A DNA stretch of 51,412 nucleotides from a virus, in IMG/VR virus record IMGVR_UViG_3300021579_000010, positions 1-51,412 of that record; one strand, written 5' to 3'. The position numbers and the translations under genes were made by a program. Positions 468 through 30,659 of this stretch are shown piece after piece. Every line of letters begins with the position of its first letter. Within the stretch, counting starts at the first letter, position 1. Under the pieces are notes generated by a model, which was not told where the DNA came from, did no database searches, and saw only the letters and a list, made by a program, of their open reading frames with translations.

Positions 468-498
468 TTGCTTTGTTGCAACACTTTGATTAGCTTTG
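468..498 (+). promoter_or_regulatory. Promoter of the packaging operon
   Basis: A Bacteroidota -7 box TAGCTTTG (491-498) lies 20 bases after a TTG (468-470), with the ATG of the first rightward gene 16 bases downstream. The 12-base sequence GCTTTGTTGCAA occurs twice, at 470-481 and 493-504. The second copy overlaps the -7 box, so a repressor or activator bound to the pair would control this promoter. Confidence 0.6.
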
Positions 499-514
499 TT
501 GCAAATTCGATTTT

Positions 515-871
515 ATGAGGGAATCAGGGTACTATTGGGTAAAGCTTGTGGGTGAATCAAATTGGTCTGTCGCATTTTATGACAATGGGTTTTCCACAAA
601 AGAAGGTATGCATCAGATTTGTGATGCCCGAATACTCACTCCTGATGAAGAAAATCCGCTTCTCAAAGCACAAGCCATTCTTGATTCTATGCTAAGTGCC
701 AAAGCCTTTGTTGTGAATTTCCTTGGCGAAGATTTTCCAAAACCTGTTTTCCCAGATGGTTACATTCCAGGGTTCACTGAATATGTGAAAGTTGCCTACC
801 CAACAGGTACAACGCCTATGGACATCAAAGTTAAGCACTACATAAACTTTGTCAATGGCCTTACTCACTAA
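515..871 (+). CDS. Unrecognised small protein, first gene of the packaging operon
   Basis: A 118-residue soluble protein that opens the rightward operon. The N-terminus (residues 5-22, GYYWVKL...WSVAFY) resembles a short aromatic-rich domain common in small phage proteins, where a tool-box role such as binding or inhibition is usually only guessed. No membrane segment or catalytic motif is visible. The start ATG lies 16 bases after the -7 box. The end overlaps the next gene by 17 bases, so the two are co-translated. Position suggests an accessory packaging role, but this is inference. Confidence 0.7.
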   Translation: MRESGYYWVKLVGESNWSVAFYDNGFSTKEGMHQICDARILTPDEENPLLKAQAILDSMLSAKAFVVNFLGEDFPKPVFPDGYIPGFTEYVKVAYPTGTTPMDIKVKHYINFVNGLTH

Positions 872-1541
872 AGCAGAGTTCTGCATCAAGATAGGCTGGC
901 TCAAAGAGAATGCCAAGGGCGAGATGAAACCTGAGACCAATAAACTCTCGGTAATGACCAACCCTAAACGCAGAAAAGTAATCTTGACAGAGGATGACAT
1001 GATTGATACGGAGCATCCGACTAACAAGGCATTTATGGCTAAGGTGTCAGGTGTGGTTCCTAAAAAAACCAACAATAAGGAAACTTTGAAAGCACCTAAG
1101 CCCGAAACTTCGAAAGCACCTAAGCAGGAAATACCAAAATCACCTAAAACCGAAACGCCAAAAGCAGAACAAGACGATGAACCAGAGCTAGATGAAGACG
1201 GTATTATGCCACTTCACGTAAGCGATAAGCTCTGGAACCATAGCAGGGCTTTGAAAGTACAAAGCGAGGCAATACTAGCAAAGGTAAAAGTTGAGAAAGA
1301 GAGTGGCACATTGATACCCACAGACTTGATAATCCCTCTATTCCAGACCCACAGCCAACAGATATTGGTGGCAATGAGCAATATGGTTGAAGATGCCCTG
1401 CGGGTTATGTGTAAAAAATATGACATTTCCATAGAGGATAGAGCAGAAATTAAGGGAAACTGGACACTAATAATCAACAAAACCCTTGAAAATGCAAAAG
1501 AAGGTACAAAAAAGCAGTTAAAAACATTATTAGCGTCATGA
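855..1541 (+). CDS. Putative terminase small subunit
   Basis: A 228-residue protein in the place usual for TerS, two genes before the large subunit. It has three parts: an N-terminal ~60-residue segment, a low-complexity charged linker (about 65-115) built of repeated KAPKPET-like units ending in an acidic stretch, and a helical C-terminal part (about 120-228). TerS binds the packaging start site and regulates the large subunit. No family motif is certain, so the call rests on context and size. An upstream TTG (849) is in frame, but the ATG at 855 is preferred. Confidence 0.5.
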   Translation: MALLTKAEFCIKIGWLKENAKGEMKPETNKLSVMTNPKRRKVILTEDDMIDTEHPTNKAFMAKVSGVVPKKTNNKETLKAPKPETSKAPKQEIPKSPKTETPKAEQDDEPELDEDGIMPLHVSDKLWNHSRALKVQSEAILAKVKVEKESGTLIPTDLIIPLFQTHSQQILVAMSNMVEDALRVMCKKYDISIEDRAEIKGNWTLIINKTLENAKEGTKKQLKTLLAS

Positions 1542-1750
1542 TAGACCAAAACCACCCACTCAAACTAGCCGGCTTCACGGATGAAGCAATTACCGAGCTT
1601 GACAACCTGTATGACAGTAGGCCGCCCATGCTCACACGAGAGCAGTTCTATCTAGGCACGATAGCCCAATTTTCCGGCAAAATGATGCCTACACCAGGGT
1701 ATGTACCCGATTTATCCAAGAAGGAATTTGTAGAATTTGAGGAAAAGTGA
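1538..1750 (+). CDS. Small protein between the terminase genes
   Basis: A 70-residue acidic protein, soluble by its composition. It is locked between the terminase genes: its ATG overlaps the preceding TGA (ATGA) and its TGA overlaps the GTG of the next gene (GTGA), so all three are translationally coupled. It may be a packaging accessory or a head-tail joining factor. No family is recognised. Confidence 0.65.
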   Translation: MIDQNHPLKLAGFTDEAITELDNLYDSRPPMLTREQFYLGTIAQFSGKMMPTPGYVPDLSKKEFVEFEEK

Positions 1751-3789
1751 TTGATGCCAACTACGACATAGAAAATGTAATAGCACAACTTGAAAGGATA
1801 CTCGATTCCGACAAGACTGCGCTATCTACAATTAAACCATCCGAATGGGTGGAGGCAAACCTGATTATGGAAGAGCCCTTTCCTGGGCCATATAGGTACA
1901 GCCTCACACCCTATTGCCGTGAAATCATAGACTGTTGGGCTACGGACCATCCGATGCTCTGGATAGCTATTATGAAGGGTGCGCAGATAGGCCTGTCATC
2001 AGGTGTCATAATACCTTCAATCGTGTGGTCAATAGCCAAAGACCCCTGCCGAATGCTGTTCACGGTAGGCTCGCCAGCCCTGATAGAGAAAGCCATGGAA
2101 AAGCTGGACAAGGCTATCTTTGGTGCCGGTGTAAAGTCTTTGATAGCTGACCAAAGTAATCGTAAGAAGAACCAGAAATCAGGTGATACCGATACCAAGA
2201 AAAGTTTTCCTGGTGGCTTCGTTGAAATATTCAACGCAGGTAACCCGAACCTGTTCAGGGATACCTCGCACAGGAAATTCTGGCTAGATGACTTTGAAGC
2301 AGTGCGCACCAGCAGTAAGAGCGCAGGTTCTACTAGGAAGGTGGCAGAGATGCGAGCAGCTGCATATGAGAACCGGCACAAGCTGGCATATGTCAGCACA
2401 CCGGAGTTAGCGGAGAACTCCAACATTGAAGAAGCATACTTACTTGGTGACCAGAGGAAGTATTACATCCCATGTCCGTGCTGTGGTGCGTTAATAGATT
2501 TGCACTGGTCTATTGAGAAAAATGGGATACAGGGTGGCATCGTCTGGGAGTGGAGTGATGAGGATATGAACGCACTTAAACCAGGTTCGGTGAAATACAG
2601 GTGCCAGGAGTGCGGTGATGCTTTCAACGATAAGACCAAGGATGCCCTGCTGAATGCAGGTAAGTGGATACCTACAGCACAACCAAGTAAGCCGGGGTAT
2701 TATAGTTATCACATAAGTTGCCTCTATGCACCAACAGGGTTCTATGGGTGGGAGAAGTATGTGTACGATTACCTAGAGGCCTGCCCAAGAAATCAGCCAC
2801 GTAAAGAGGCTTTGTATCAATCCTTCGTTAACACGGTATTAGGTCTTACCTACAAACCACCTACCGAGAACCTGGATGCTTCCAAGATTGCAGGTAATAT
2901 TGCAGACTATGAGCCGGGTGTAGTGCCTGACAGCCTCAGCGTAGAACACGGAAATGGCCACATAGTGATGCTCACATGTGGTGCTGACTTGAATGGTAAA
3001 ATGAAAGGCTCACAGCATAACGTGAATGATGCAAGGCTGGATTATGAGGTGGTAGCGCACTCTGAATCAGGTGCCACATACTCCATACTCCAAGGCAGCA
3101 TAGGTACATTCAAACCACTTGGCGGTAATGAAGGTGAGGACAGGGTGATTTGGTCATATGAGCAGGACGTGGAGAACTCTGTCTGGCCGGAGTTCGAGAA
3201 AATACTGAAACGTGAGTTCCCGATAGATTCAGGTGGTACAATACCAATAGCTGTTACCCTGCTTGACTGCTCGGCTTATGCCACTACAGCAGCATATCCA
3301 TTTTTGGAACGCACCAACTGCTATGTGGTAGGTGTGAAGGGCGAAAAAGAAGAAGAGTACAAGTACCTCGGAAGGAACACTAGATTTGTTAAGCCATCCA
3401 TGGAGCGACCCAAGGACTTGTGGATATTACAGGTAGGTCTGCTTAAAGACAGGAATGCAGAGTATATGGCTTTGAACCACGACAAGAAAACAAAGCAGCC
3501 TGACGGCTTTATGAATTTTCCGCATCCATCAAACAGGATGTATGAGTATGCCACATACTTCCAGCACTTCGAGGCAGAAGAGAAAAGGGTAATCAACAAA
3601 GATGGCAAAACATACTACAGGTGGGTTAAGAAAAACTCCGAGGTACAGAACCACTTCCTAGACTGCCGTGTGTACAACTTGGCAGGTAAGGAAATAATGA
3701 TGGCTATCTACGATAAGGAAACAGATGACCGCAGCAAGGTCAAAGGGGATTGGAGGGCTTTTGCTAAGATACTGGCAGAGGCAATATAA
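1747..3789 (+). CDS. Terminase large subunit, GpA-like
   Basis: The motor and nuclease that cuts concatemeric DNA and pumps it into the prohead. Its 680 residues match the GpA family size. Visible parts: an ATPase domain with a P-loop-like KGAQIGLSSG (77-86) and an acidic FWLDDFEAV (near 180), two CxxC pairs of a zinc-binding element (CPCC near 244 and CQEC near 286), and a C-terminal nuclease domain starting around VMLTCGADLNG (near 405), where the Asp would be a metal ligand. The start is GTG overlapping the previous stop. The next gene is separated by a promoter at 3783-3848, so packaging and tail genes can be expressed separately. Confidence 0.92.
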   Translation: MIDANYDIENVIAQLERILDSDKTALSTIKPSEWVEANLIMEEPFPGPYRYSLTPYCREIIDCWATDHPMLWIAIMKGAQIGLSSGVIIPSIVWSIAKDPCRMLFTVGSPALIEKAMEKLDKAIFGAGVKSLIADQSNRKKNQKSGDTDTKKSFPGGFVEIFNAGNPNLFRDTSHRKFWLDDFEAVRTSSKSAGSTRKVAEMRAAAYENRHKLAYVSTPELAENSNIEEAYLLGDQRKYYIPCPCCGALIDLHWSIEKNGIQGGIVWEWSDEDMNALKPGSVKYRCQECGDAFNDKTKDALLNAGKWIPTAQPSKPGYYSYHISCLYAPTGFYGWEKYVYDYLEACPRNQPRKEALYQSFVNTVLGLTYKPPTENLDASKIAGNIADYEPGVVPDSLSVEHGNGHIVMLTCGADLNGKMKGSQHNVNDARLDYEVVAHSESGATYSILQGSIGTFKPLGGNEGEDRVIWSYEQDVENSVWPEFEKILKREFPIDSGGTIPIAVTLLDCSAYATTAAYPFLERTNCYVVGVKGEKEEEYKYLGRNTRFVKPSMERPKDLWILQVGLLKDRNAEYMALNHDKKTKQPDGFMNFPHPSNRMYEYATYFQHFEAEEKRVINKDGKTYYRWVKKNSEVQNHFLDCRVYNLAGKEIMMAIYDKETDDRSKVKGDWRAFAKILAEAI

Positions 3790-8685: not shown

Positions 8686-9818
8686 CAACCATACCCACCA
8701 TATCGACCTTAAAGAGTAACCTGATTTCTGACTTTAACGCGGAGTTTGACATTAGTGTGAACCCTTACGGTAAGGCTTTCCTTGAAGCCCTTGCCACTGT
8801 GCTTGCTGGTATGTTGTGGATATGTTACACAGCTATAGGGTTTGTGCAGGGTAACCTATGGGTGGATACATGTGATTATGAAACACTTATCAGGTTCGGG
8901 TATATCATACTCGCCAGATACCCTAATGAGGCTATAGCCGGGCAGTACACATGCACTGTTACAGGTACTACGGGCGCAGTGATACCTAATGCCACTGTAT
9001 GGGCTGCTGATAGCACAAGCACTTCGCCAGGGCAATTGTTCACCATCCTTGGCGGGGCTTATACAATGCCCGGAACTACCGGCACAATTACGATACAGGC
9101 CTTATCAGGTGGTTTATCATCCAGGTTGTCTGTAGGTGACACACTGACCTCACAGGCACCCATACTCAATGTTAGCAACAACCTTACTGTCACGGTTGAA
9201 GTTTTAGCACCTATCAACGCTGAAACCGAAGCTCAGTACAGACAAGCCGTAATAAATAAAATCCAGCTTACTCCCGGTTCTTGGTCAGCAGTTGATTACC
9301 GTCTGGTGGGTGCCGGGGTAGCTGGTGTCTATAACACATATGCGTATGCTACATCAGGTGCATCTAATGAGGCATCGGTGTTTTTACAAGGTCCTATCCC
9401 ACTCGCATATCCGGGACCCTCAGTAAGTGGAACCGTGCTTACCAATTATGAAACAGCACTTGAACTGGTAAGACCCATGACAGTGTTCCTTGTGAACTAC
9501 TATAGCAGCCCAATCAATAACATTGATGTCACGATAGTGATGGGTGGATTTCCAGCATTCACAACAGCACAGAAAGCACTGATAAGTTCTGCACTGACAA
9601 GTTTTGTAAATAGTGTTCACCCGTTTATACTAGCGTGTGATAATATTTCAGACAGGAATGATACAATAGCCACATACAACCTGAGTAGCACAATATCTGC
9701 TGCTGTACCGGGTTATGGGTTTAGTGCAGTGACATTCACGGTAGCAGGTACACCAGCCACGCTTTGGCTCGCTGACTTAGGTAATATACCATATTTAAAC
9801 TCAATTACGTATGCTTAG
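8682..9818 (+). CDS. Baseplate wedge protein, gp47 / baseplate J-like
   Basis: A 378-residue protein with the baseplate J layout: an N-terminal helical part (YGKAFLEALATVLAGMLW, residues 28-45), a central Gly/Thr-rich beta region, and a C-terminal part beginning at INAETEAQYRQAV (about 178-190), the most conserved segment of the family. It links wedge to hub and triggers sheath contraction. It overlaps both neighbours slightly, so gp46, gp47 and gp48-like genes form one translationally linked set. Confidence 0.85.
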   Translation: MTTIPTISTLKSNLISDFNAEFDISVNPYGKAFLEALATVLAGMLWICYTAIGFVQGNLWVDTCDYETLIRFGYIILARYPNEAIAGQYTCTVTGTTGAVIPNATVWAADSTSTSPGQLFTILGGAYTMPGTTGTITIQALSGGLSSRLSVGDTLTSQAPILNVSNNLTVTVEVLAPINAETEAQYRQAVINKIQLTPGSWSAVDYRLVGAGVAGVYNTYAYATSGASNEASVFLQGPIPLAYPGPSVSGTVLTNYETALELVRPMTVFLVNYYSSPINNIDVTIVMGGFPAFTTAQKALISSALTSFVNSVHPFILACDNISDRNDTIATYNLSSTISAAVPGYGFSAVTFTVAGTPATLWLADLGNIPYLNSITYA

Positions 9819-10625: not shown

Positions 10626-11207
10626 ATGGCATTTCCAATATCAGCACTTGACGGAGTAGTAACAGGACCGGGCGCAGGGTATCCTTATGGGGATATAGTA
10701 GATTCTGCGGTAGGCACGGCAGGCACAAGGGTTAACAGGAAATTCACTGATGACCTGATGCAGACATCGCAGAAGCTGATGGCAGATGCAGGTATTACAC
10801 CTAATGGCAACCCGGATAATTCCATCAACGGTTATCAGATATTTAATGCAATAATCAATTGCAGGCCATTTAGTAGCACAGGTATTGTGTTCACTAACTC
10901 AGGGCAGAACGTGTGGGGCAATTCAGGTGGCGGCAGTTACAATGTCGGTTTTCGGCAAGCAGGTAATATGGTTAACTTATGCGGAGCTGCAACCAATTCA
11001 GGTATCGCAGGCTCAGCTACAGTTAATATAATGACACTACCCGTTGGTGCAAGACCCGCATCCAGTGTTACCATAGCGGTGCTTACCGACACGGGGGCTA
11101 TGCACAGTATAAGTATTTCACCCGCCGGACAGGTTACCTCATCGGATACAACGACTACTTTTGGTGGTACAGTGTATTTAGATAACGTGTCATTCCGCTT
11201 TGTATAA
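10626..11207 (+). CDS. Tail fibre or baseplate-appendage protein
   Basis: 193 residues placed after the gp48-like gene, where receptor-binding or fibre genes usually sit. The N-terminal half is likely the attachment domain. The C-terminal half (from about residue 80) is Gly/Thr/Ser-rich and predicted beta, ending VYLDNVSFRFV. It is very short for a whole fibre, so it may be a tip or collar protein. Its 3' end overlaps the reversed gene beyond it by 18 bases. Confidence 0.6.
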   Translation: MAFPISALDGVVTGPGAGYPYGDIVDSAVGTAGTRVNRKFTDDLMQTSQKLMADAGITPNGNPDNSINGYQIFNAIINCRPFSSTGIVFTNSGQNVWGNSGGGSYNVGFRQAGNMVNLCGAATNSGIAGSATVNIMTLPVGARPASSVTIAVLTDTGAMHSISISPAGQVTSSDTTTTFGGTVYLDNVSFRFV

Positions 11208-11861
11208 CAGCTTATGATTACACAGGTACAACCCAACAGGAAGTGTGCTGTAATCGTAAGTTAGGAACTGACCCATCAGGTTATAAACGGGAGAAGGTTC
11301 TAAGTTCTTTGATAAAGGGGAAACACCCAAGGCACCTGCGCCCAACACACGTACAGGGTAGTCCTGTGTCGTACCGTAGTTACCTGTGGTTTCACTACCG
11401 ACAGCACACAGCCTAGGTGATGCAGTTCCAGAGTACCGGACAATCCGCATACGGGTATCACAAGGTATCGCTGTAACAGGTACGTTAATGTGGAAGGACC
11501 TAACCTCGGTAGTACTTAGGGCAGCTAGTACAAAAGTGGTATCATAACCACCGAAAAAGGATATGTATCCACTTGCAGTATTGTAACACAAAGCAATTCT
11601 CACCCACGAAGTGCTAGGACAAGGTTCAAAAGCGATAGTTGTGTTGAAAGAGGAATCAGGGAACAGCAGTATTTCAGGTAGGTTATCAAACAGTGTGTAA
11701 TGACCAAGACCTGGCACAGAGTTGTCCAGATTGGATATTTCCACACGAGAGATACCACCTCCGCAAGTGTTGCAGTTGTTCAAGGCAGCGCAGTATGGTG
11801 CCGGATTAGTGTGCTGGCCATAAGATGCCACGCAAAGAAGTAATAAAATAAGTGTTCGCAT
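11190..11861 (-). CDS. Secreted cargo protein with T9SS-like C-terminus
   Basis: A lone leftward gene inside the rightward tail operon. The 223-residue product begins MRTLILLLLCVASYG, a Sec signal peptide that should be cut before Gln16. The mature part is Cys-rich (a CNTCGGG cluster, about six more Cys). The last ~35 residues (YNLMGQ, then LPVGLY, then KLLYK) resemble the type A sorting domain that routes proteins through the Bacteroidota type IX secretion system, but lack the upstream PNP strand. A perfect -7 box TATCTTTG lies three bases before the ATG. It is probably a moron expressed independently of the tail genes. Function unknown. Confidence 0.7.
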   Translation of the reverse strand: MRTLILLLLCVASYGQHTNPAPYCAALNNCNTCGGGISRVEISNLDNSVPGLGHYTLFDNLPEILLFPDSSFNTTIAFEPCPSTSWVRIALCYNTASGYISFFGGYDTTFVLAALSTTEVRSFHINVPVTAIPCDTRMRIVRYSGTASPRLCAVGSETTGNYGTTQDYPVRVLGAGALGVSPLSKNLEPSPVYNLMGQFLTYDYSTLPVGLYLCNHKLLYKAE

Positions 11862-11889
11862 AGTCAAAGATAAGTAATATATTTGAGGT
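11862..11889. promoter_or_regulatory. Divergent near-palindromic promoter pair
   Basis: The 28-base gap holds a leftward -7 box (CAAAGATA on the plus strand, read as TATCTTTG) and a rightward box TATATTTG (11878-11885), arranged as a near-palindrome around AGTAA. The start codons lie only 3 and 4 bases beyond the boxes, so any transcripts would be leaderless or nearly so. Clear -33 elements were not found. Confidence 0.45.
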
Positions 11890-12645
11890 GTGGCAGTTTT
11901 TAACGTAAATAGCGCAGCCCTGTCAGTCTATGTAGCGGTTCTTCAGCACATGAAGAAATCAGCTTTACCTGTGGCTATACGACAGACGTTGAATGATATG
12001 GCTTTTGACACTAAAACCAACACAATGCCAGCAGAGGCACACAAAGACTTTATCCACAGGAAGGATACATTCTTTAAAGCGAACTCTAGGGCAGAAGTGG
12101 CTAAAGGTTTTGATGTCAACACTATGAGGTCACAGGTGTATTTTAAACCAAAAGAGAAAGATAAAAGTCATTCTGTGGAGGACTTGGAGGAACAGGAAGA
12201 AGGTACACCGATTAAGTACAGCAGGGCTTTTGTCGGTCTTGCTACATCACGTAGTAGCAACAGGTGGAATAAAAATATCAGGAACAGGAACAGGCGTAAT
12301 AATATGCCTGATGCAATTGATGCTAAGAATTACGTGAGTAAGTATGCACCAACAGACAAGAGTAAATATGTGGCAGCAGCTATATGGGCTGCTAAAACAG
12401 GCGCGCTCGTCATAGGTAATAAGGTCAATGGCAGAGGTAATAAAATGGCGTGGAGGCCAGACCACTTGAATAGGTTTAATGGTGACACATTTGTAGTGGC
12501 AACACCTCTTTTTGCTGTTAAAAGGGCAAGGATAGTAAAACCACCAGCAACCCACTTTATGAGAGATGCTAGTGAAGAGAGCCTGAGAAAAGGTGATAAA
12601 TTCTTTGCTAAAAATGTAAATTTGCAAATAGCTAAAATAAAGTAA
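11890..12645 (+). CDS. Unrecognised tail-module protein, basic
   Basis: A 251-residue basic protein between the fibre region and the gpN-like gene. The N-terminal third (ALPVAIRQTLNDMAFDTK) has the look of tail-completion or virion morphogenesis proteins. The middle contains an Asn/Arg-rich stretch near residues 120-140 that could bind nucleic acid. The start is GTG four bases after a -7 box; an in-frame Met21 is an alternative. It likely takes part in tail completion, by context only. Confidence 0.6.
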   Translation: MAVFNVNSAALSVYVAVLQHMKKSALPVAIRQTLNDMAFDTKTNTMPAEAHKDFIHRKDTFFKANSRAEVAKGFDVNTMRSQVYFKPKEKDKSHSVEDLEEQEEGTPIKYSRAFVGLATSRSSNRWNKNIRNRNRRNNMPDAIDAKNYVSKYAPTDKSKYVAAAIWAAKTGALVIGNKVNGRGNKMAWRPDHLNRFNGDTFVVATPLFAVKRARIVKPPATHFMRDASEESLRKGDKFFAKNVNLQIAKIK

Positions 12646-18739: not shown

Positions 18740-19291
18740 ATGAAAAACTTACTTCTTATTTTACTGGTGTTCACTGGATTACTTGCCGAAGCGCAACCTA
18801 CACGTAAACACCCTAACTGGTCACCTGCACCATTTATCTACACAGGCCAGATGTACTACACAGCTAATGCCATCGCCTACACAGGTACTTATATACAGGA
18901 CACCATCGGTGCTTCTGCATCTATCAATCTTGCTGTAGCTGATTATAGGAAGGGTATTGTTGCGACTGATAGCTTTAGTTACCTGCCAATATTCGGTCAG
19001 GCTGCTCAGCAGTTTACTGTAAAATACACAAAAATATCCGGTAGTCCGGCTGTAACAGTTGTCCATGAATCATCTCCCGATGGTGTGTTGTGGGGTCCAC
19101 AGCTTACTACAAGCACGAACAGGTCACTGGATACACTAACTTTCACGGCATCAGGTACGGCTATTCTGTATGCACCTATCAGATATGGTAACTATGAGAG
19201 GTTAGCAATATACACTACATCAGCTACCCAATCAGGCTACATTAAGGCTTCTCACAACACTATTTTCCCGAACTACAACGCTACTAAGTAA
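18740..19291 (+). CDS. Exported protein, first gene of the head operon
   Basis: 183 residues with a clear Sec signal peptide (MKNLLLILLVFTGLLAEA, cut before Gln19). The mature part is Thr/Ser/Tyr-rich and predicted beta, without a catalytic motif. It leads the operon encoding the protease and capsid, yet would be secreted, so it may act at the envelope rather than in the head. Its stop overlaps the protease start (TAATG). Confidence 0.75.
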   Translation: MKNLLLILLVFTGLLAEAQPTRKHPNWSPAPFIYTGQMYYTANAIAYTGTYIQDTIGASASINLAVADYRKGIVATDSFSYLPIFGQAAQQFTVKYTKISGSPAVTVVHESSPDGVLWGPQLTTSTNRSLDTLTFTASGTAILYAPIRYGNYERLAIYTTSATQSGYIKASHNTIFPNYNATK

Positions 19292-22496: not shown

Positions 22497-23239
22497 TGGG
22501 GTTCACTGCCGACATAGCGCAAGATATAGCAGATATTCTGTCCGACACGGACGAGTTCGCCATACCTGTAATCTGGACGGTTACCGGTGGCAGCACTGTT
22601 GTGTCTAAGACATGCAACGCACAGGTAGTTCTCCACAACTTTTACATCAACGACACAGGTAATGCTGTGATAGGCACTACTTCACGCATTATGGTGAGTG
22701 AGGTATCTTTGAAAGCAGCAGGGTTCCCTACACGGGATAGCAACGGCAAATTCAGCTTAAAAGGAGATATTGTAACTTTTACTGAGGAAGTGAACCAAAC
22801 GCAGATAACCTTTGGTATCCGTGAAGTTTTCGGAAATTACCAGACAGGAATGATTACCTGCACACTCGGCACATATGGCACTGTTACACCTCCTGGTAGA
22901 ACGATTATAGGCTGGATTGCAGCACCTATCCTGATTAAAGTAATGACCACTCCTGGCACTCAAAAGCAGACATTGGCTAATGGTGACCAGATTAATATTG
23001 AGTATGCAGTAGATGGCCAAGGTAAGCTACCAATTCCTTACCTGGTAAGCTACACGGCACTTACTCCGTTCTTAATGGACAATGTGAATTACAGCTTAGT
23101 AGTAACACCTGCTTTTGACGCAAACGCTGTGCTGTACACAGTGGCTACAGGCACATTCAACAATGCTAATAACGGGGGCTTTGCTCCTGATATAAATGTA
23201 ATAACTGTTAACGCATCAATCCCAATTTGGAAAACATGA
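22496..23239 (+). CDS. Head-tail connector-like protein
   Basis: 247 residues with a GTG start. The first ~85 residues (GFTADIAQDIADILSDTDEFAIPVIWTV) resemble lambda gpFII / head-tail joining proteins, which sit under the portal and take the tail tube. The second part (from about 130) is beta-rich and Thr/Asn-rich, resembling an added Ig-like or appendage domain. Such a fusion is larger than single-domain gpFII proteins. Confidence 0.55.
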   Translation: MGFTADIAQDIADILSDTDEFAIPVIWTVTGGSTVVSKTCNAQVVLHNFYINDTGNAVIGTTSRIMVSEVSLKAAGFPTRDSNGKFSLKGDIVTFTEEVNQTQITFGIREVFGNYQTGMITCTLGTYGTVTPPGRTIIGWIAAPILIKVMTTPGTQKQTLANGDQINIEYAVDGQGKLPIPYLVSYTALTPFLMDNVNYSLVVTPAFDANAVLYTVATGTFNNANNGGFAPDINVITVNASIPIWKT

Positions 23240-23556
23240 GAAAACTAATGACACTGATTGCCTTACTTGTGGCATCAGTAGCTTTCGGGCAGGCCAACAC
23301 AAAACAAGTGCAGATTAAAAACATATCCAGCACATGTATTCAGATTAACGGTCAGGATTACCCTAAAAACGGGTTTCTGCTCACGCAGTACAAGTATGGC
23401 ACGACCGACAGCACACTAGGGCTGCTATACGCCAATACAAGGACTTACATGCTTGCACCCACTATTGATTCGCTGTTCTACTATGTGGACAGCAGCAAGA
23501 AAGCGTACAACATGACAGTACTCCGGACGTGGTTCAGAACTAATCTAGGCAACTAA
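23236..23556 (+). CDS. Small exported protein in the connector region
   Basis: 106 residues with a signal peptide MRKLMTLIALLVASVAFG, to be cut before Gln19. The mature ~88 residues are predicted beta, with several Thr/Tyr/Asp-rich stretches. The ATG overlaps the previous TGA (ATGA). Function unknown; it is one of five proteins with this signal peptide pattern. Confidence 0.65.
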   Translation: MRKLMTLIALLVASVAFGQANTKQVQIKNISSTCIQINGQDYPKNGFLLTQYKYGTTDSTLGLLYANTRTYMLAPTIDSLFYYVDSSKKAYNMTVLRTWFRTNLGN

Positions 23557-24164: not shown

Positions 24165-24619
24165 AACTAGGAGCGTTACCAACAGATACACTTGACCCAG
24201 CCACCGATACAGTGCTAGTGGTTCGTGATGTGGCTGGTGTCAAGTCTGACATCAGAGTACCAGCTACTGATTTTTCAGTGCCGGTTACGCCAGGTACACC
24301 AATACCTGCACTACACCCCGGAGCTGGAACAGGAGCCACGGTAACACTAATTAACTGCACTGATAAGTCAGGCACAATACAGGTTACAACAGGCACTTCA
24401 CCATCTACAAGTCAAAGAATAGTAGAAATGGCGTTTAGTACAGCTTACACAACACCTGTAAGCGTGGTATTTAGCCCATTTGACGAAAACGCTAACACCG
24501 CATCAGGGTTTGTGTACTGTAACTCAAATCACACAGCAGGTTTTTCCATTGTTGCTAATTCGCTAGGAAGTTTAAACGGACCAGGGGTTGTTTACGAATG
24601 GTCATACATTGTTTTATGA
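24161..24619 (+). CDS. Putative fibre-associated or appendage protein
   Basis: 152 residues with a Pro/Thr-rich N-terminal segment (LPTDTLDPATDTVLVVRDVAG), reminiscent of fibre-base proteins, followed by a predicted beta domain. It overlaps its neighbours by four bases each. No family recognised; the local context is appendage genes. Confidence 0.5.
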   Translation: MKLGALPTDTLDPATDTVLVVRDVAGVKSDIRVPATDFSVPVTPGTPIPALHPGAGTGATVTLINCTDKSGTIQVTTGTSPSTSQRIVEMAFSTAYTTPVSVVFSPFDENANTASGFVYCNSNHTAGFSIVANSLGSLNGPGVVYEWSYIVL

Positions 24620-26943
24620 GGTATTTAATATTCACACTACTTTTCCTCTCTGCAACCAGCTATGGGCAGGCACCTGTAAGGCAGGTTAACAGATATGGGC
24701 AGCTAGGCTACATAGATTCCAACAAGGGAACTTCTATGCAGAACCAACTCATAATACCTGACACAGGTACTTTGTTCAACCCCTTCCTTGATAGCATACG
24801 CTCCATTAGGTTCAATCCTGTTGACACTACTTTAGAGGTATACCTACCATCATTAGGTGGCTGGTTTGCTATTAAAGGAGGTACTGGTGGTGGCGGTAGT
24901 TACTCTGCCGGATACGGTCTATTACTGGCGCGACACACATTCAGGGTTGATTCAGGAGTTGTAGCATCCCTGAACTGGATTGATAGTGTCCTAGCAGCCA
25001 ACCCCTACGGGTGGATAAGTGAGGAAACAGACCCTTATAGTTTTCATTTTGACGATAGCAACACACATAACAATGCAATTACATTAGACTACTTCAATGA
25101 CAGCACTTACTATTTAAGGCAATTGCGAGATGCTAAAATTACCAGCCCTGTAGATAAGCAAGTGTTAGAATACAATTCCTCGTATTGGGTTAACCGTACG
25201 CCATATTGGGTAAAATCAGGTGATAGCAATGTAAATGGCGGTTATGCAAGTTATTACTCAATCAATCCTATACCTCACGCAGGCATGATACTAGGAAGTA
25301 ATGGCACAGGCTTTGTATGGACTTCCTTACCTACATCAGTAGGCAGGCTTGCTTGTACCGATAACAGTATCAACATACAGCCTATTAGTGGCTCGGACAG
25401 CGTTGTGTATGTATCAGTGAATGTAGCGAACGGCTATAAATTTTCAGGTGTAGATACTTTCACCCAAAACCTTTATCTACAAAACAAATTAGGTATCGGA
25501 ACAGGCGCACCAGGCGCACCGCTTGACATTCATAGTTCAGGTAGTGTACTTGCCCAAATGGAGAATACTAGCACAGGCAATAGCTTAATAACATTCAGAA
25601 ATCAGGGGTCGGCATATTGGGGAATAGGTAATAATTACAATGGAGGTTTGAATGATTTTATAATCTACAATGCCCAAACCTTTACAAACCCGATAAGTAT
25701 TGCTGAAGATAACACTATTACGGTATCAGGTAACATAATTGCCACAGGTCATAACGCAACAGCCGATACGTTTAAAGGCATACCATACAGCGCAGCAGGG
25801 GGAGCGCTAACAGGCAACTTTCCCAATCCTACAATTGCGGCAAGCGGAGTTGGCGCAGGAACATGCAACTATTGCAATCTTACCATTGGCTCGGATGGGC
25901 GAGTTTCATCTAAGAGCAATGGTACAGCCCCAATTAGCTATTCGTTTAAGCTACCACTATCAATCAACAGTACTACGGTTTCTATACCTGCCGTTTCAGC
26001 AACAGATAGTGGTTATGTTACTCCAACACAATATAACACGTGGAACGCTAAGGGGGCAGGTACGGTAACAAGCCTATCAGTCGCCACTTCAAACGGTTTT
26101 GCAGGTTCAGTCGCAACAGCCACTACAACACCTGTTATTACTATGTCATTAACCCCAACAGTAGGTAGTATTGTTAAGGTCGGTTCAGGTGGTTCAGCTA
26201 CAGCAGCAGTGGCAGGAACGGACTATTTGACAACAGCCGTTACAAGTGTTGGGCTATCAGTACCGTCTATATTTTCAGTTACACCTACACCAATCACCAC
26301 AACAGGTACATTCAGCGTTACGGCAGTTCCTGAAACAGCCAACTATGTCTGGGCAGGACCTACTACAGGCGCAGCAGCACAACCCTCGTTCAGGGCTTTA
26401 GTTGGGTCGGATATACCCACAACCACTGTTACAGCAGGCATTTATGGCAGTGGGTCGCTTATACCATCATTCACAGTAGACGCAACAGGTAGGCTCACAG
26501 GGGTTACCACATATACCTTCAGTGCCGGGGGCAGCTCTACCACCCTGACAGCAGGTCCAGGAATCGCACTTACGGCAGGTACTAACACGTATACGGTATC
26601 TGTAGCAGCCAACACCATGTATGACAATGGGAACAGCAGCACAGCGAAGACATGGGATGGGGTAAACGGTACGCTCCAAAAAATGGCAATGACAGGTAAT
26701 TGTGTAATCACGCTACAGAACTTATTAGTAGGAGTGCCTTACTATTTCTATGTCACACAGTCAGCAGGTACGCTATACGCTCTGAGCAGCACAGGCACCA
26801 GTGCGATTAAAGCACCCTTCAACGGGGTGGGCGTATGGCCGCTAACGCAGGTAGCATCAGCACTTGATGTGTACACCATAATCAATTATGGTACGGTAGC
26901 AAGCCCTTTATATAAAATGTCCTACAGCCCATACAACAACTAA
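24616..26943 (+). CDS. Large fibre-like protein with signal peptide
   Basis: 775 residues. It begins with a signal peptide (MRYLIFTLLFLSATSYG, cut before Gln18). Long Gly/Ser/Thr-rich stretches follow, with motifs such as GTVTSLSVATSNGF and PITTTGTFSVTAVPETANYVW seen in fibre proteins of Bacteroidota phages. A C-terminal ~130-residue domain includes LTAGPGIALTAGTNTYTVSV. Structural fibres are normally cytoplasmic before assembly, so a signal peptide is unexpected; it could be surface-displayed instead. The upstream in-frame TTG at 24598 is weaker than ATG at 24616. Confidence 0.65.
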   Translation: MRYLIFTLLFLSATSYGQAPVRQVNRYGQLGYIDSNKGTSMQNQLIIPDTGTLFNPFLDSIRSIRFNPVDTTLEVYLPSLGGWFAIKGGTGGGGSYSAGYGLLLARHTFRVDSGVVASLNWIDSVLAANPYGWISEETDPYSFHFDDSNTHNNAITLDYFNDSTYYLRQLRDAKITSPVDKQVLEYNSSYWVNRTPYWVKSGDSNVNGGYASYYSINPIPHAGMILGSNGTGFVWTSLPTSVGRLACTDNSINIQPISGSDSVVYVSVNVANGYKFSGVDTFTQNLYLQNKLGIGTGAPGAPLDIHSSGSVLAQMENTSTGNSLITFRNQGSAYWGIGNNYNGGLNDFIIYNAQTFTNPISIAEDNTITVSGNIIATGHNATADTFKGIPYSAAGGALTGNFPNPTIAASGVGAGTCNYCNLTIGSDGRVSSKSNGTAPISYSFKLPLSINSTTVSIPAVSATDSGYVTPTQYNTWNAKGAGTVTSLSVATSNGFAGSVATATTTPVITMSLTPTVGSIVKVGSGGSATAAVAGTDYLTTAVTSVGLSVPSIFSVTPTPITTTGTFSVTAVPETANYVWAGPTTGAAAQPSFRALVGSDIPTTTVTAGIYGSGSLIPSFTVDATGRLTGVTTYTFSAGGSSTTLTAGPGIALTAGTNTYTVSVAANTMYDNGNSSTAKTWDGVNGTLQKMAMTGNCVITLQNLLVGVPYYFYVTQSAGTLYALSSTGTSAIKAPFNGVGVWPLTQVASALDVYTIINYGTVASPLYKMSYSPYNN

Positions 26944-27803
26944 TGAGAACACTGGTATTTATATTATTAAGCACGATAGCCATGGCTCAGGACTACCCTC
27001 CGCAAGCCAGAGCAGTCCTTATCACTACCAATGCATCATCAAGCCTGACTGACGGTAGGGCTTATGCTGTGGCGTACCAAGCAGGGCTACTCAACTACTA
27101 CGCGACCTCAGCATTCGGGTTAACCACCACTGGCGTGATAGCTTCTTATTATGCGGCTAAGTACTACTTGCTCGGTAGTACCCTGGCGCAGATGAAATAT
27201 AACTTCATCAATACCAGTAGCTACACCTTAACAGACGTAAACACATGCACCTACTCAGCAGCAGGCATAGGAACAAGTGCATCTGGTAATAAATACGTAA
27301 ACACCAATTTCAACGATAGCACTAATGGCAGTGATACCATGGGTATCCAAATATACAGCAGTGCAATATCTACTACAGGTGATAATAATATGATGGGTGT
27401 AGATGGTACGATTCTTGCTACTTCCAGTTTTACATACCTGCAAATGAATGGCAGCACTATATACACAGGTATGCATGACAATGGTAACTTTAGTTTTGCG
27501 AATGGTTCAACCACGTACAACGGGATAAGCCATTTCATACAAAGGCAGGGCGCACCGAACTACACGAAAACAGTCTATTTCCAATCAGGAGCGCTAAAGA
27601 AAACCAACACTGCCACAGCCCTGTTCAGGCCAAATTATAGTATCTTTGTTGGTGGGGTGAGCGACAGGGGTACGATTAATAAGCCTATGACAGCCACAAT
27701 CGGGTGTTTTGGTATTACGTCAGGCAGGGAACTAACAACAGCACAGGTGTTGGAAAGTTGGAATATTGATAGCAAGATATTAACTACAGGAGGGAAAAAC
27801 TAA
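26943..27803 (+). CDS. Exported protein with LamG-like C-terminal domain
   Basis: 286 residues. Signal peptide MRTLVFILLSTIAMA, cut before Gln16. The C-terminal ~130 residues (...SHFIQRQGAPNYTKTVYFQSG, IFVGGVSDRG, TIGCFGITSGRELTTAQVLESWNID) resemble the concanavalin/LamG-like domain found in many phage appendage proteins and used to bind carbohydrate. It starts on the stop of the previous gene. It may be a surface-bound adhesin or a secreted decoy rather than a virion component. Confidence 0.65.
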   Translation: MRTLVFILLSTIAMAQDYPPQARAVLITTNASSSLTDGRAYAVAYQAGLLNYYATSAFGLTTTGVIASYYAAKYYLLGSTLAQMKYNFINTSSYTLTDVNTCTYSAAGIGTSASGNKYVNTNFNDSTNGSDTMGIQIYSSAISTTGDNNMMGVDGTILATSSFTYLQMNGSTIYTGMHDNGNFSFANGSTTYNGISHFIQRQGAPNYTKTVYFQSGALKKTNTATALFRPNYSIFVGGVSDRGTINKPMTATIGCFGITSGRELTTAQVLESWNIDSKILTTGGKN

Positions 27804-29284: not shown

Positions 29285-29559
29285 TGGATGTTCAAGAAAC
29301 ACGAGATGGGATACATGAGTATTTCAATTTGACCTATGCGAGTTACCTAGTTCTGCCTAGAACTGTACTGCAATCTATGCCTGATACGTGGCAAGCTGAT
29401 TTTGTGGAAATGCTTGAAAAAATACCACGCACGCTAGATTACACGGAGGTTGATAATTACAGGGTTATGGCAACAGATGCAAAAGGCAAATTTGTAAAAG
29501 ACGATTTAGCAAATTATCAAAGAGGTAGGAGAAAATTACCCACTAAAACTGACCAATAA
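29284..29559 (+). CDS. Unrecognised small soluble protein in the lysis region
   Basis: 91 residues, rich in Asp, Glu and aromatic residues, no membrane segment. Start overlaps the previous stop, and stop overlaps the spanin start. Function unknown. Confidence 0.55.
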   Translation: MDVQETRDGIHEYFNLTYASYLVLPRTVLQSMPDTWQADFVEMLEKIPRTLDYTEVDNYRVMATDAKGKFVKDDLANYQRGRRKLPTKTDQ

Positions 29560-30143
29560 TGAGAATCTATCTTATAGCCATCCTGCTGGCACTTGCCTCG
29601 TGTAATGGATTACGGAGGCAGACACACAGGTTTGAGGTATTTCATGACCAGCACGACAGCTTGGCAGCTATGTACTGCGCCAAGTGGTATCCCACTACCA
29701 GTGACAGCTCACGCAAGGTGAAAGTTCTACCCGGTAAGATACTCCGCATACCTGGTAAGACTGTGTACGCTAACTGTGATTCAGCATACAGGGCTGCTCT
29801 TGCCAAGGCTAAACATGATGGTTCAGATGTAGTGGTGGTACCATCTGTAAAGGTGAAATCCCAAGACAGCTACAGGCAGAGGGATACCGTGCAGATACAT
29901 GATGAAGTAGTGACGGTGGATAATAAGCAACTAATAGCTTTGGCGTACCAGAAGAACCAGGAGATTGCGGCCAAGAACGCAGAAATAGAGAGATTAAATA
30001 TTCAGGCTGTCACATTTAAGACTAAGATGATGACTTACAGGAAAACGACATTTACGCTACTAGGGTTGCTGGTGCTTGCTATTGCAGGTACAATATTAGA
30101 ATTGAAGTATAAGCTGTCAACAAAAGTAAAAAGGCTGGTGTAG
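29559..30143 (+). CDS. Unimolecular spanin candidate
   Basis: 194 residues. The N-terminus MRIYLIAILLALASC has a lipobox (LASC, Cys15) for an outer-membrane lipoprotein. A long middle part includes a predicted helical or coiled-coil stretch (YQKNQEIAAKNAEIERLNIQ, about 130-149). The C-terminus has a transmembrane segment (about 165-181) with a basic tail (KYKLSTKVKRLV). This lipobox-plus-C-terminal-anchor layout is that of u-spanins, which join outer and inner membranes in the last lysis step. The endolysin follows. The call rests on architecture, since spanins lack conserved sequence. Confidence 0.7.
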   Translation: MRIYLIAILLALASCNGLRRQTHRFEVFHDQHDSLAAMYCAKWYPTTSDSSRKVKVLPGKILRIPGKTVYANCDSAYRAALAKAKHDGSDVVVVPSVKVKSQDSYRQRDTVQIHDEVVTVDNKQLIALAYQKNQEIAAKNAEIERLNIQAVTFKTKMMTYRKTTFTLLGLLVLAIAGTILELKYKLSTKVKRLV

Positions 30144-30194: not shown

Positions 30195-30659
30195 ATGAAA
30201 CCAAAAATTATTTCTGTAGCGGAAACACAAATAGGCATCCAAGAGGATGAAGCACACACTAACCGTGGTGAAGCTATTAAATACCAAAGAGCAGCAGGTC
30301 TAGGTGATGCTGGCGGTTACCCCTGGTGCCAATCCTTCATGGTATGGTGTGGACGTGAGGCATATGGTAAGGACAGTCCTATACCTAGAGTGGGTGGCGT
30401 ACTAGAGTGCCTCAGGCTCGCAAAAGATAAGGGTATCCCTATATCTAATATCCCCGTGATAGGCTCACAATTTATCATAGATGAAGGAGGCAGTAGGGGT
30501 CACACCGGATTAGTGGTTGCTATTGACGGTGATAGGCTGACCACTATTGAGGGCAATAGTAACCCACAAGGAGGCCGTGATGGCTACGCTGTGGTCCTGC
30601 AAACGAAAAGAAGGATAAAAGATATGAAGTGCTTTATAAACTATAATTATGTAGGTTAG
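30195..30659 (+). CDS. Endolysin, CHAP/NlpC-like cysteine peptidase or amidase
   Basis: 154 residues. Cys45 lies in YPWCQSFMVW, and His103 in SRGHTGLVVAI, with Glu119 and Asn121 in IEGNSN. This Cys-His-(Asn/Glu) arrangement is that of CHAP and NlpC/P60 hydrolases, which cleave peptidoglycan peptides or amide bonds. There is no signal peptide, so a holin must release it. It sits at the end of the lysis cassette, and a terminator follows. Confidence 0.75.
   Translation: MKPKIISVAETQIGIQEDEAHTNRGEAIKYQRAAGLGDAGGYPWCQSFMVWCGREAYGKDSPIPRVGGVLECLRLAKDKGIPISNIPVIGSQFIIDEGGSRGHTGLVVAIDGDRLTTIEGNSNPQGGRDGYAVVLQTKRRIKDMKCFINYNYVG

Follow-up and report, generated by a model that had tools for sequence, protein, structure and literature searches.

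A predicted exported GEVED-domain protein in an accessory slot beside a phage tail-tip gene, and its possible role at the surface of infected cells

Superinfection exclusion by a lipoprotein encoded beside a receptor-binding gene has already been published for phage T5, in which Llp is encoded beside the receptor-binding protein pb5 and blocks the receptor FhuA (PMC9586334). Phage-encoded cargo of the type IX secretion system (T9SS) has also been described. In Cryophage, type A sorting domains are borne by a PA14 protein and by two enzymes, an endoglucanase and a glycoside hydrolase, and this cargo differs between phage variants, with proposed roles as enzymes, in competition and in superinfection exclusion (Bellas et al. 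2020, PMC7468147); phage T9SS cargo is therefore not a new idea. Short T9SS signals of 43–55 residues are known from Prevotella intermedia and contain motifs B (Tyr, Gly), D (GxY, followed by I or L) and E (a basic residue close to the C-terminus) (Ye et al. 2025, PMC11969387). According to work cited in that paper, the 22 C-terminal residues of HBP35, which carry motifs D and E, are required for secretion. For lipoproteins of Capnocytophaga, the signal for surface export is C-X-K-(D/E)2 (PMC5080379). No description of short T9SS signals in phages was found in the literature searched, and none of the papers searched contained the accessory slot, the exported tail-tip copies or the combination of a GEVED domain with a short C-terminal signal (i.e. 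a short CTD) reported here.

Location and domain content of P0001

The gene for P0001 is a complete minus-strand ORF of 223 codons, with an ATG at 11861 and a stop codon at 11190–11192 (Table 1). It lies among the tail genes of a 51.4-kb IMG/VR virus record from a phage of Bacteroidota-type bacteria; all 51,412 nucleotides of this record form the window. The genes for a tape measure, baseplate J, a phrog_4920 protein and a short tail tip lie to the left, and those for a minor tail protein (phrog_4688), two baseplate hubs and the portal lie to the right. The 3' end of the P0001 gene overlaps the end of the oppositely directed tail-tip gene by 18 bases. The reversed gene that a preliminary description had placed in the tail module was thus borne out as a minus-strand ORF between plus-strand tail genes. 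The nearest described phages found were the Cellulophaga phages phiSM and phi3:1 and the Flavobacterium phages FCV-1, FCL-2 and FL-1, the compared tail proteins being roughly 26–40% identical. At the equivalent place, these phages had plus-strand tail genes and no reversed gene. No close relatives of P0001 were found in IMG/VR or among annotated phages, and a single match in a genome collection (L005) lies inside a prolyl oligopeptidase-like protein and was rejected as due to chance.

The N-terminus of P0001 is a typical Bacteroidota signal peptide, MRTLILLLLCVASYG, followed by Q. Its end reads CVASYG^QHTNP, and this placement of Q at +1, together with a positive result in an in-house signal-peptide test, bore out the Q-rule signal peptide of the preliminary description; the signal is also visible by eye. 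A lipobox Cys was absent from the signal peptide by both sequence and the in-house test. The mature part had been described as Cys-rich and is mildly so, with 8 Cys in 207 residues.

Four more Sec signal peptides ending in Q are encoded on the plus strand of the window (18740–19291, 23236–23556, 24616–26943 and 26943–27803). One of these proteins has 775 aa and tail-fibre-like repeats, a signal peptide being odd on such a fibre-like protein; this 775-aa protein has only three weak phage matches. Just before a CHAP endolysin (30195–30659), the window also encodes a lipoprotein of 194 aa (29559–30143, plus strand) that has a membrane segment at its C-terminus and is possibly a spanin-like lysis protein.

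A GEVED domain, missed in the preliminary description, was detected in P0001 with both Pfam and an extended in-house profile built from GEVED loci of bacterial genomes. Pfam PF20009 matched residues 113–170 with 25.2 bits, just over the curated cut-off of 24.4, and the extended profile matched residues 18–175 with 40.2 bits (E 1.4e-14 for a single sequence), as compared to a best score of 4.8 bits among 3000 shuffled copies of P0001. P0001 shares with the bacterial GEVED proteins of Bacteroidota (PF20009) the domain, a signal peptide and predicted export, but is far smaller than most of them and lacks their acidic loop. In the alignment, YISFFGGYD and a degenerate signature, YGTTQDY, stand where bacterial members have the loop WIDFNxDG and the signature GEVEDY, respectively, and the conserved Cys, Arg and DY are retained. 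The loop and signature are common in GEVED members but no formal requirement, and P0001 was called a divergent GEVED domain because of its profile score, despite their loss. No Pfam GEVED matches were obtained in 50 related virus records. The L297/L298 GEVED contigs were left out of the viral counts; their neighbour genes look bacterial.

Among solved structures, the GEVED-domain profile had one match, to endo-beta-N-acetylglucosaminidase HS (9x1i, residues 737–881, E 4e-5). The same stretch was the best fold match (Z 7.7) of the P0001 structure model, which was poor, with a mean pLDDT of 32 from the single sequence and 46 with four viral GEVED relatives. This agreement between sequence and fold is taken with caution because Z is below 8, and it hints that the domain is a glycan-related beta-sandwich that might itself bind glycan.

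Table 1. Positions of P0001, its parts, the borders of the slot and the tail-tip copies in other loci (window coordinates unless a locus is named)
Feature	Position	Strand	Basis
Tail-tip gene (phrog_5194-like N-terminus), left border of accessory slot	10626..11207	+	profiles
Predicted exported GEVED-domain protein P0001	11190..11861	-	ORF call, Pfam, extended profile
C-terminal 47 aa with motifs B (YNLMG), D (GLYL) and E (KLLYK) of short T9SS signals	11193..11333	-	motif test
GEVED domain, residues 18-175, without acidic DxNxDG-type loop of bacterial members	11337..11810	-	Pfam, extended profile, alignment
Sec signal peptide, residues 1-16 (MRTLILLLLCVASYGQ; predicted cut beside Q16)	11814..11861	-	sequence, in-house test
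TATCTTTG, match to -7 element TAnnTTTG directly before P0001 ATG	11865..11872	-	motif scan
TATATTTG, same TAnnTTTG element, facing minor tail gene	11878..11885	+	motif scan
Minor tail protein (phrog_4688), right border of accessory slot	11890..12645	+	profiles
Predicted exported or lipid-anchored tail-tip copy, L092	7317-7685		
Predicted exported or lipid-anchored tail-tip copy, L104	5167-5538		
Predicted exported or lipid-anchored tail-tip copy, L121	7337-7711		
Predicted exported or lipid-anchored tail-tip copy, L183	6826-7233		

The accessory slot and its other occupants

The interval between the tail-tip and minor-tail genes was surveyed in relatives of the phrog_4920 gene, obtained from IMG/VR in three scans, with both border genes located by profiles. 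Among 132 distinct loci, the interval was closed (≤84 bases) in 98 and held 267–2560 bases in 34, the window included, whilst none had an interval of 85–266 bases. This pattern, with inserts in 34 of 132 distinct relatives, had escaped the preliminary description, and the interval reads as a swappable accessory slot. An apparently exported protein was encoded in 21 of the 34 insert-bearing loci. Loci with one tail-tip gene had inserts in 27 of 74 cases, 21 of these with an apparently exported protein; for loci with two tail-tip genes the corresponding numbers were 7 of 58 and zero. The in-house signal-peptide test was positive for 19 of 45 slot ORFs as compared to 3 of the 467 remaining ORFs in these loci, with a Fisher p of 2e-19 that serves as a guide only because the sequences are related and the ORFs were called mechanically. 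Lipoprotein-type signals were present in 15 of the slot ORFs and in none of the others, and two further lipoproteins that are plain by eye (L127 and L190) are missed by the signal-peptide test.

Several slot proteins are related to the tail tip itself. Signal-peptide-bearing homologues of the tail-tip C-terminal domain were found in L121 (45% identity, E 4e-28), L092 (E 2e-13), L183 (E 6e-10) and L104 (E 1e-7). Each aligned to the tail tip of its own locus with z of 15–38 over shuffles, and when all 132 tips were ranked by alignment score the own tip came first in three cases and second in one. This homology to the own tail-tip domain ties the slot to receptor recognition, and the four proteins are possible receptor decoys. 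L127 encodes a weaker tail-tip copy (z 8), and L161 has a similar tip-like domain behind an N-terminal hydrophobic segment, which resembles the tips of other phages. P0001 was rejected as a tail-tip copy (z 0.7). The L121 slot that encodes a predicted exported tail-tip copy also contains a muramidase-like gene (8730–9263; GH108-type by eye).

Lipoproteins with an HExGH metallopeptidase motif were encoded at eight distinct loci, i.e. L098, L106, L137, L156 (same contig as L074), L174, L179, L182 and L190. The two that were tested match phrog_87 metallo-protease, and none of the small HExGH lipoproteins scanned reached a Pfam cut-off. Other slot lipoproteins were found in L068, L073, L203 and L099. 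The N-terminus of that in L073 showed a weak likeness to the Cor superinfection-exclusion family (E 0.001), possibly due to nothing more than the signal peptide. Several slot lipoproteins start with C-K-K-(D/E), close to the C-X-K-(D/E)2 of Capnocytophaga surface lipoproteins. Inserts without export signals, comprising antirepressor-like genes and others, were observed in L195 (6130–7731), L120 (8999–10004) and L288 (8340–9074).

Matches to TAnnTTTG, the consensus of the Bacteroidota -7 promoter element, lie before both P0001 and the minor tail gene (Table 1). This element was found within 70 bases for 4 of 10 minus-strand slot genes as compared to 105 of 2350 random stretches. A scan for sigma-70-type promoters found sites no commoner than in shuffles. 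The moron-like character proposed in the preliminary description is well supported by the opposite strand, the insertion at a place where the slot of most relatives is empty, and the possible own promoter. Together with the signal peptide and a domain typical of secreted Bacteroidota proteins, these features give good support to P0001 as a predicted exported, moron-like protein.

The C-terminal tail and type IX secretion

The stretches YNLMGQ, LPVGLY and KLLYK, which had been put forward as a type A T9SS sorting domain, are all present in P0001. A type A domain as such was not detected at its C-terminus, since Pfam Por_Secre_tail (PF18962) and all NCBIfam models gave no match. On an in-house profile built from 43 bacterial sorting domains, the tail scored 5.2 bits, a score equalled by 2 of 3000 shuffles and 31 of about 2030 phage C-termini, and its likeness was concentrated in the second half of the domain.

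What stands of T9SS targeting is a plausible fit to the shorter, three-motif signal. Motifs B, D and E occur in order at the C-terminus of P0001 as YNLMG, GLYL and KLLYK, within about 47 aa as compared to the 43–55 of P. intermedia. Two of 2203 distinct related-phage ORFs pass the three-motif pattern, namely the P0001 gene and the L191 gene, both in the same slot. This pattern is supporting evidence only because it was written after the sequence had been seen, is passed by 69 of 20000 shuffles of the P0001 tail and recognises only 10 of the 43 long bacterial signals; the outcome was alike with a tighter pattern applied before it. P0001 differs from the P. intermedia signals in its longer B-to-D spacing of about 9–12 aa, which lies between the short and long classes (mostly 1–6 aa in published short CTDs), and in having no clear PT/GI cut site, that consensus not being obvious and GALGVSP being a candidate. 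Among predicted Sec-exported slot proteins, a short-CTD-like end is thus carried by P0001 and L191. The tail of L195 resembles one by eye only, and was rejected as it fails the motif test (GVLI in place of GxY).

The company of the GEVED domain raises the prior for a T9SS signal in P0001, because all 16 of the sampled bacterial GEVED proteins with a readable C-terminus (a small example being L029, of about 300 aa) end, by eye, in an apparent sorting domain. Related phages do appear to carry T9SS cargo. Por_Secre_tail was found in one of 50 related virus records (contig L110/L295), in a 275-aa protein with a signal peptide (37.7 bits; cut-off 27) whose gene adjoins terminase genes. Virus contig L299 encodes, between phage-like genes, a 1006-aa protein (473–3493) with both GEVED (62.8 bits) and Por_Secre_tail (39.8 bits). 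As these contigs encode full Por_Secre_tail proteins above the Pfam cut-off, T9SS use by phages of this kind gains independent support. The likeness to Cryophage lies in phage-encoded proteins with T9SS signals that vary between variants and for which superinfection exclusion is proposed, whereas type A domains are used there and P0001, encoded in a defined slot that adjoins the tail-tip gene, combines GEVED with a tail resembling a short CTD. Routing of P0001 through the host T9SS is plausible and slightly favoured, and P0001 is probably located at the cell surface.

Proposed function and alternatives

The explanation that we prefer starts from what is read directly from the sequence, i.e. 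the gene, its signal peptide and GEVED domain, the slot, the export signals of other occupants and the tail-tip homology of some of them. P0001 would be cargo of a swappable slot adjoining the tail-tip gene, made during infection from its own strand, and exported by Sec and then by the host type IX system, probably via the short C-terminal signal, to the cell surface. Its GEVED beta-sandwich would there bind a surface glycan or receptor, and the surface of the infected cell would be masked or altered such that further phages, of its own kind or competitors, could not attach. A role in the encounter between phage and receptor is suggested because exported proteins adjoin the tail-tip gene and some are tail-tip copies. 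Taken as a whole, and with some freedom in the export route, this account of a surface-acting slot cargo that uses the T9SS in superinfection exclusion is our best explanation and a tentative one; action of P0001 by receptor masking or editing in particular is possible. In position and purpose, T5 Llp can be regarded as the nearest proven analogue of the slot proteins and not as a homologue. P0001 resembles Llp and Cor (PMC9586334) in being a small, predicted exported phage protein beside a putative receptor-binding gene, but is larger, is not a lipoprotein and is unrelated in sequence; the small-lipoprotein trait is met by many other slot occupants.

A somewhat unlikely alternative is that P0001 is exported by Sec only, acts in the periplasm or exits by a different pathway, and has a T9SS-like tail by chance or as a relic. 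This would agree with the weak in-house profile score and the missing curated sorting-domain match, with the lipoprotein rather than T9SS signals on the majority of other slot occupants, and with T5 Llp, the best-known exclusion lipoprotein, which acts from the periplasm (PMC9586334). It sits less well with the sorting domains that end the sampled bacterial GEVED proteins and with motifs ordered at the very C-terminus in a pattern so rare among phage ORFs. P0001 could also be a moron whose effect on the host is ecological (adhesion, polymer binding or competition) and not directed against phages, as might be expected from a host-type module such as GEVED, from the diverse slot contents and from the enzymatic or competitive roles proposed for Cryophage T9SS cargo (Bellas et al., PMC7468147). 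We consider this unlikely, given the position of the slot next to the tail-tip gene and the presence of tail-tip domain copies among its occupants; a lasting host benefit also fits a lytic life style less well, and no integrase could be recognised in the set of window genes examined.

The slot arrangement would also suit a role in release, with metallopeptidases, tail-tip copies and GEVED proteins keeping progeny off receptors on debris or vesicles after lysis, and the HExGH lipoproteins of the eight slot loci are putatively able to strip surface protein. Present data do not separate such an aid to release from superinfection exclusion, of which the prevention of re-adsorption is a close rival, although we rate release as improbable in its own right. 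It is very improbable that P0001 is a virion (tail accessory) protein merely encoded on the other strand. Its gene does lie inside the tail module, and the same genome encodes the 775-aa tail-fibre-like protein with a signal peptide, yet P0001 has a signal peptide, an opposite strand and no homologue in the relatives surveyed, whilst its neighbours have homologues in phi3:1 with a structural annotation.

Superinfection exclusion at the cell surface is retained as the preferred reading, and the range of slot contents suggests three ways to one end: anchored tail-tip copies would occupy the receptor, surface peptidases would remove it and the GEVED protein would coat the surface. A broader and more doubtful proposal is that this is a dedicated surface-editing slot, whose occupants would be routed to the surface by Sec, lipoprotein flipping and T9SS and would protect the infected cell from other phages, tail-tip copies by occupying the receptor, metallopeptidases by cutting it and GEVED/T9SS proteins by coating it. 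If true, Bacteroidota phages would exploit the surface-delivery systems of their hosts to alter what infected cells show to other phages, and one genome position would list many independent solutions. Short T9SS signals would then extend beyond P. intermedia. Receptor occupancy as a means of exclusion could be tested directly and simply with the predicted exported tail-tip copies, which might also point to receptors in Bacteroidota, a phylum with few known ones.
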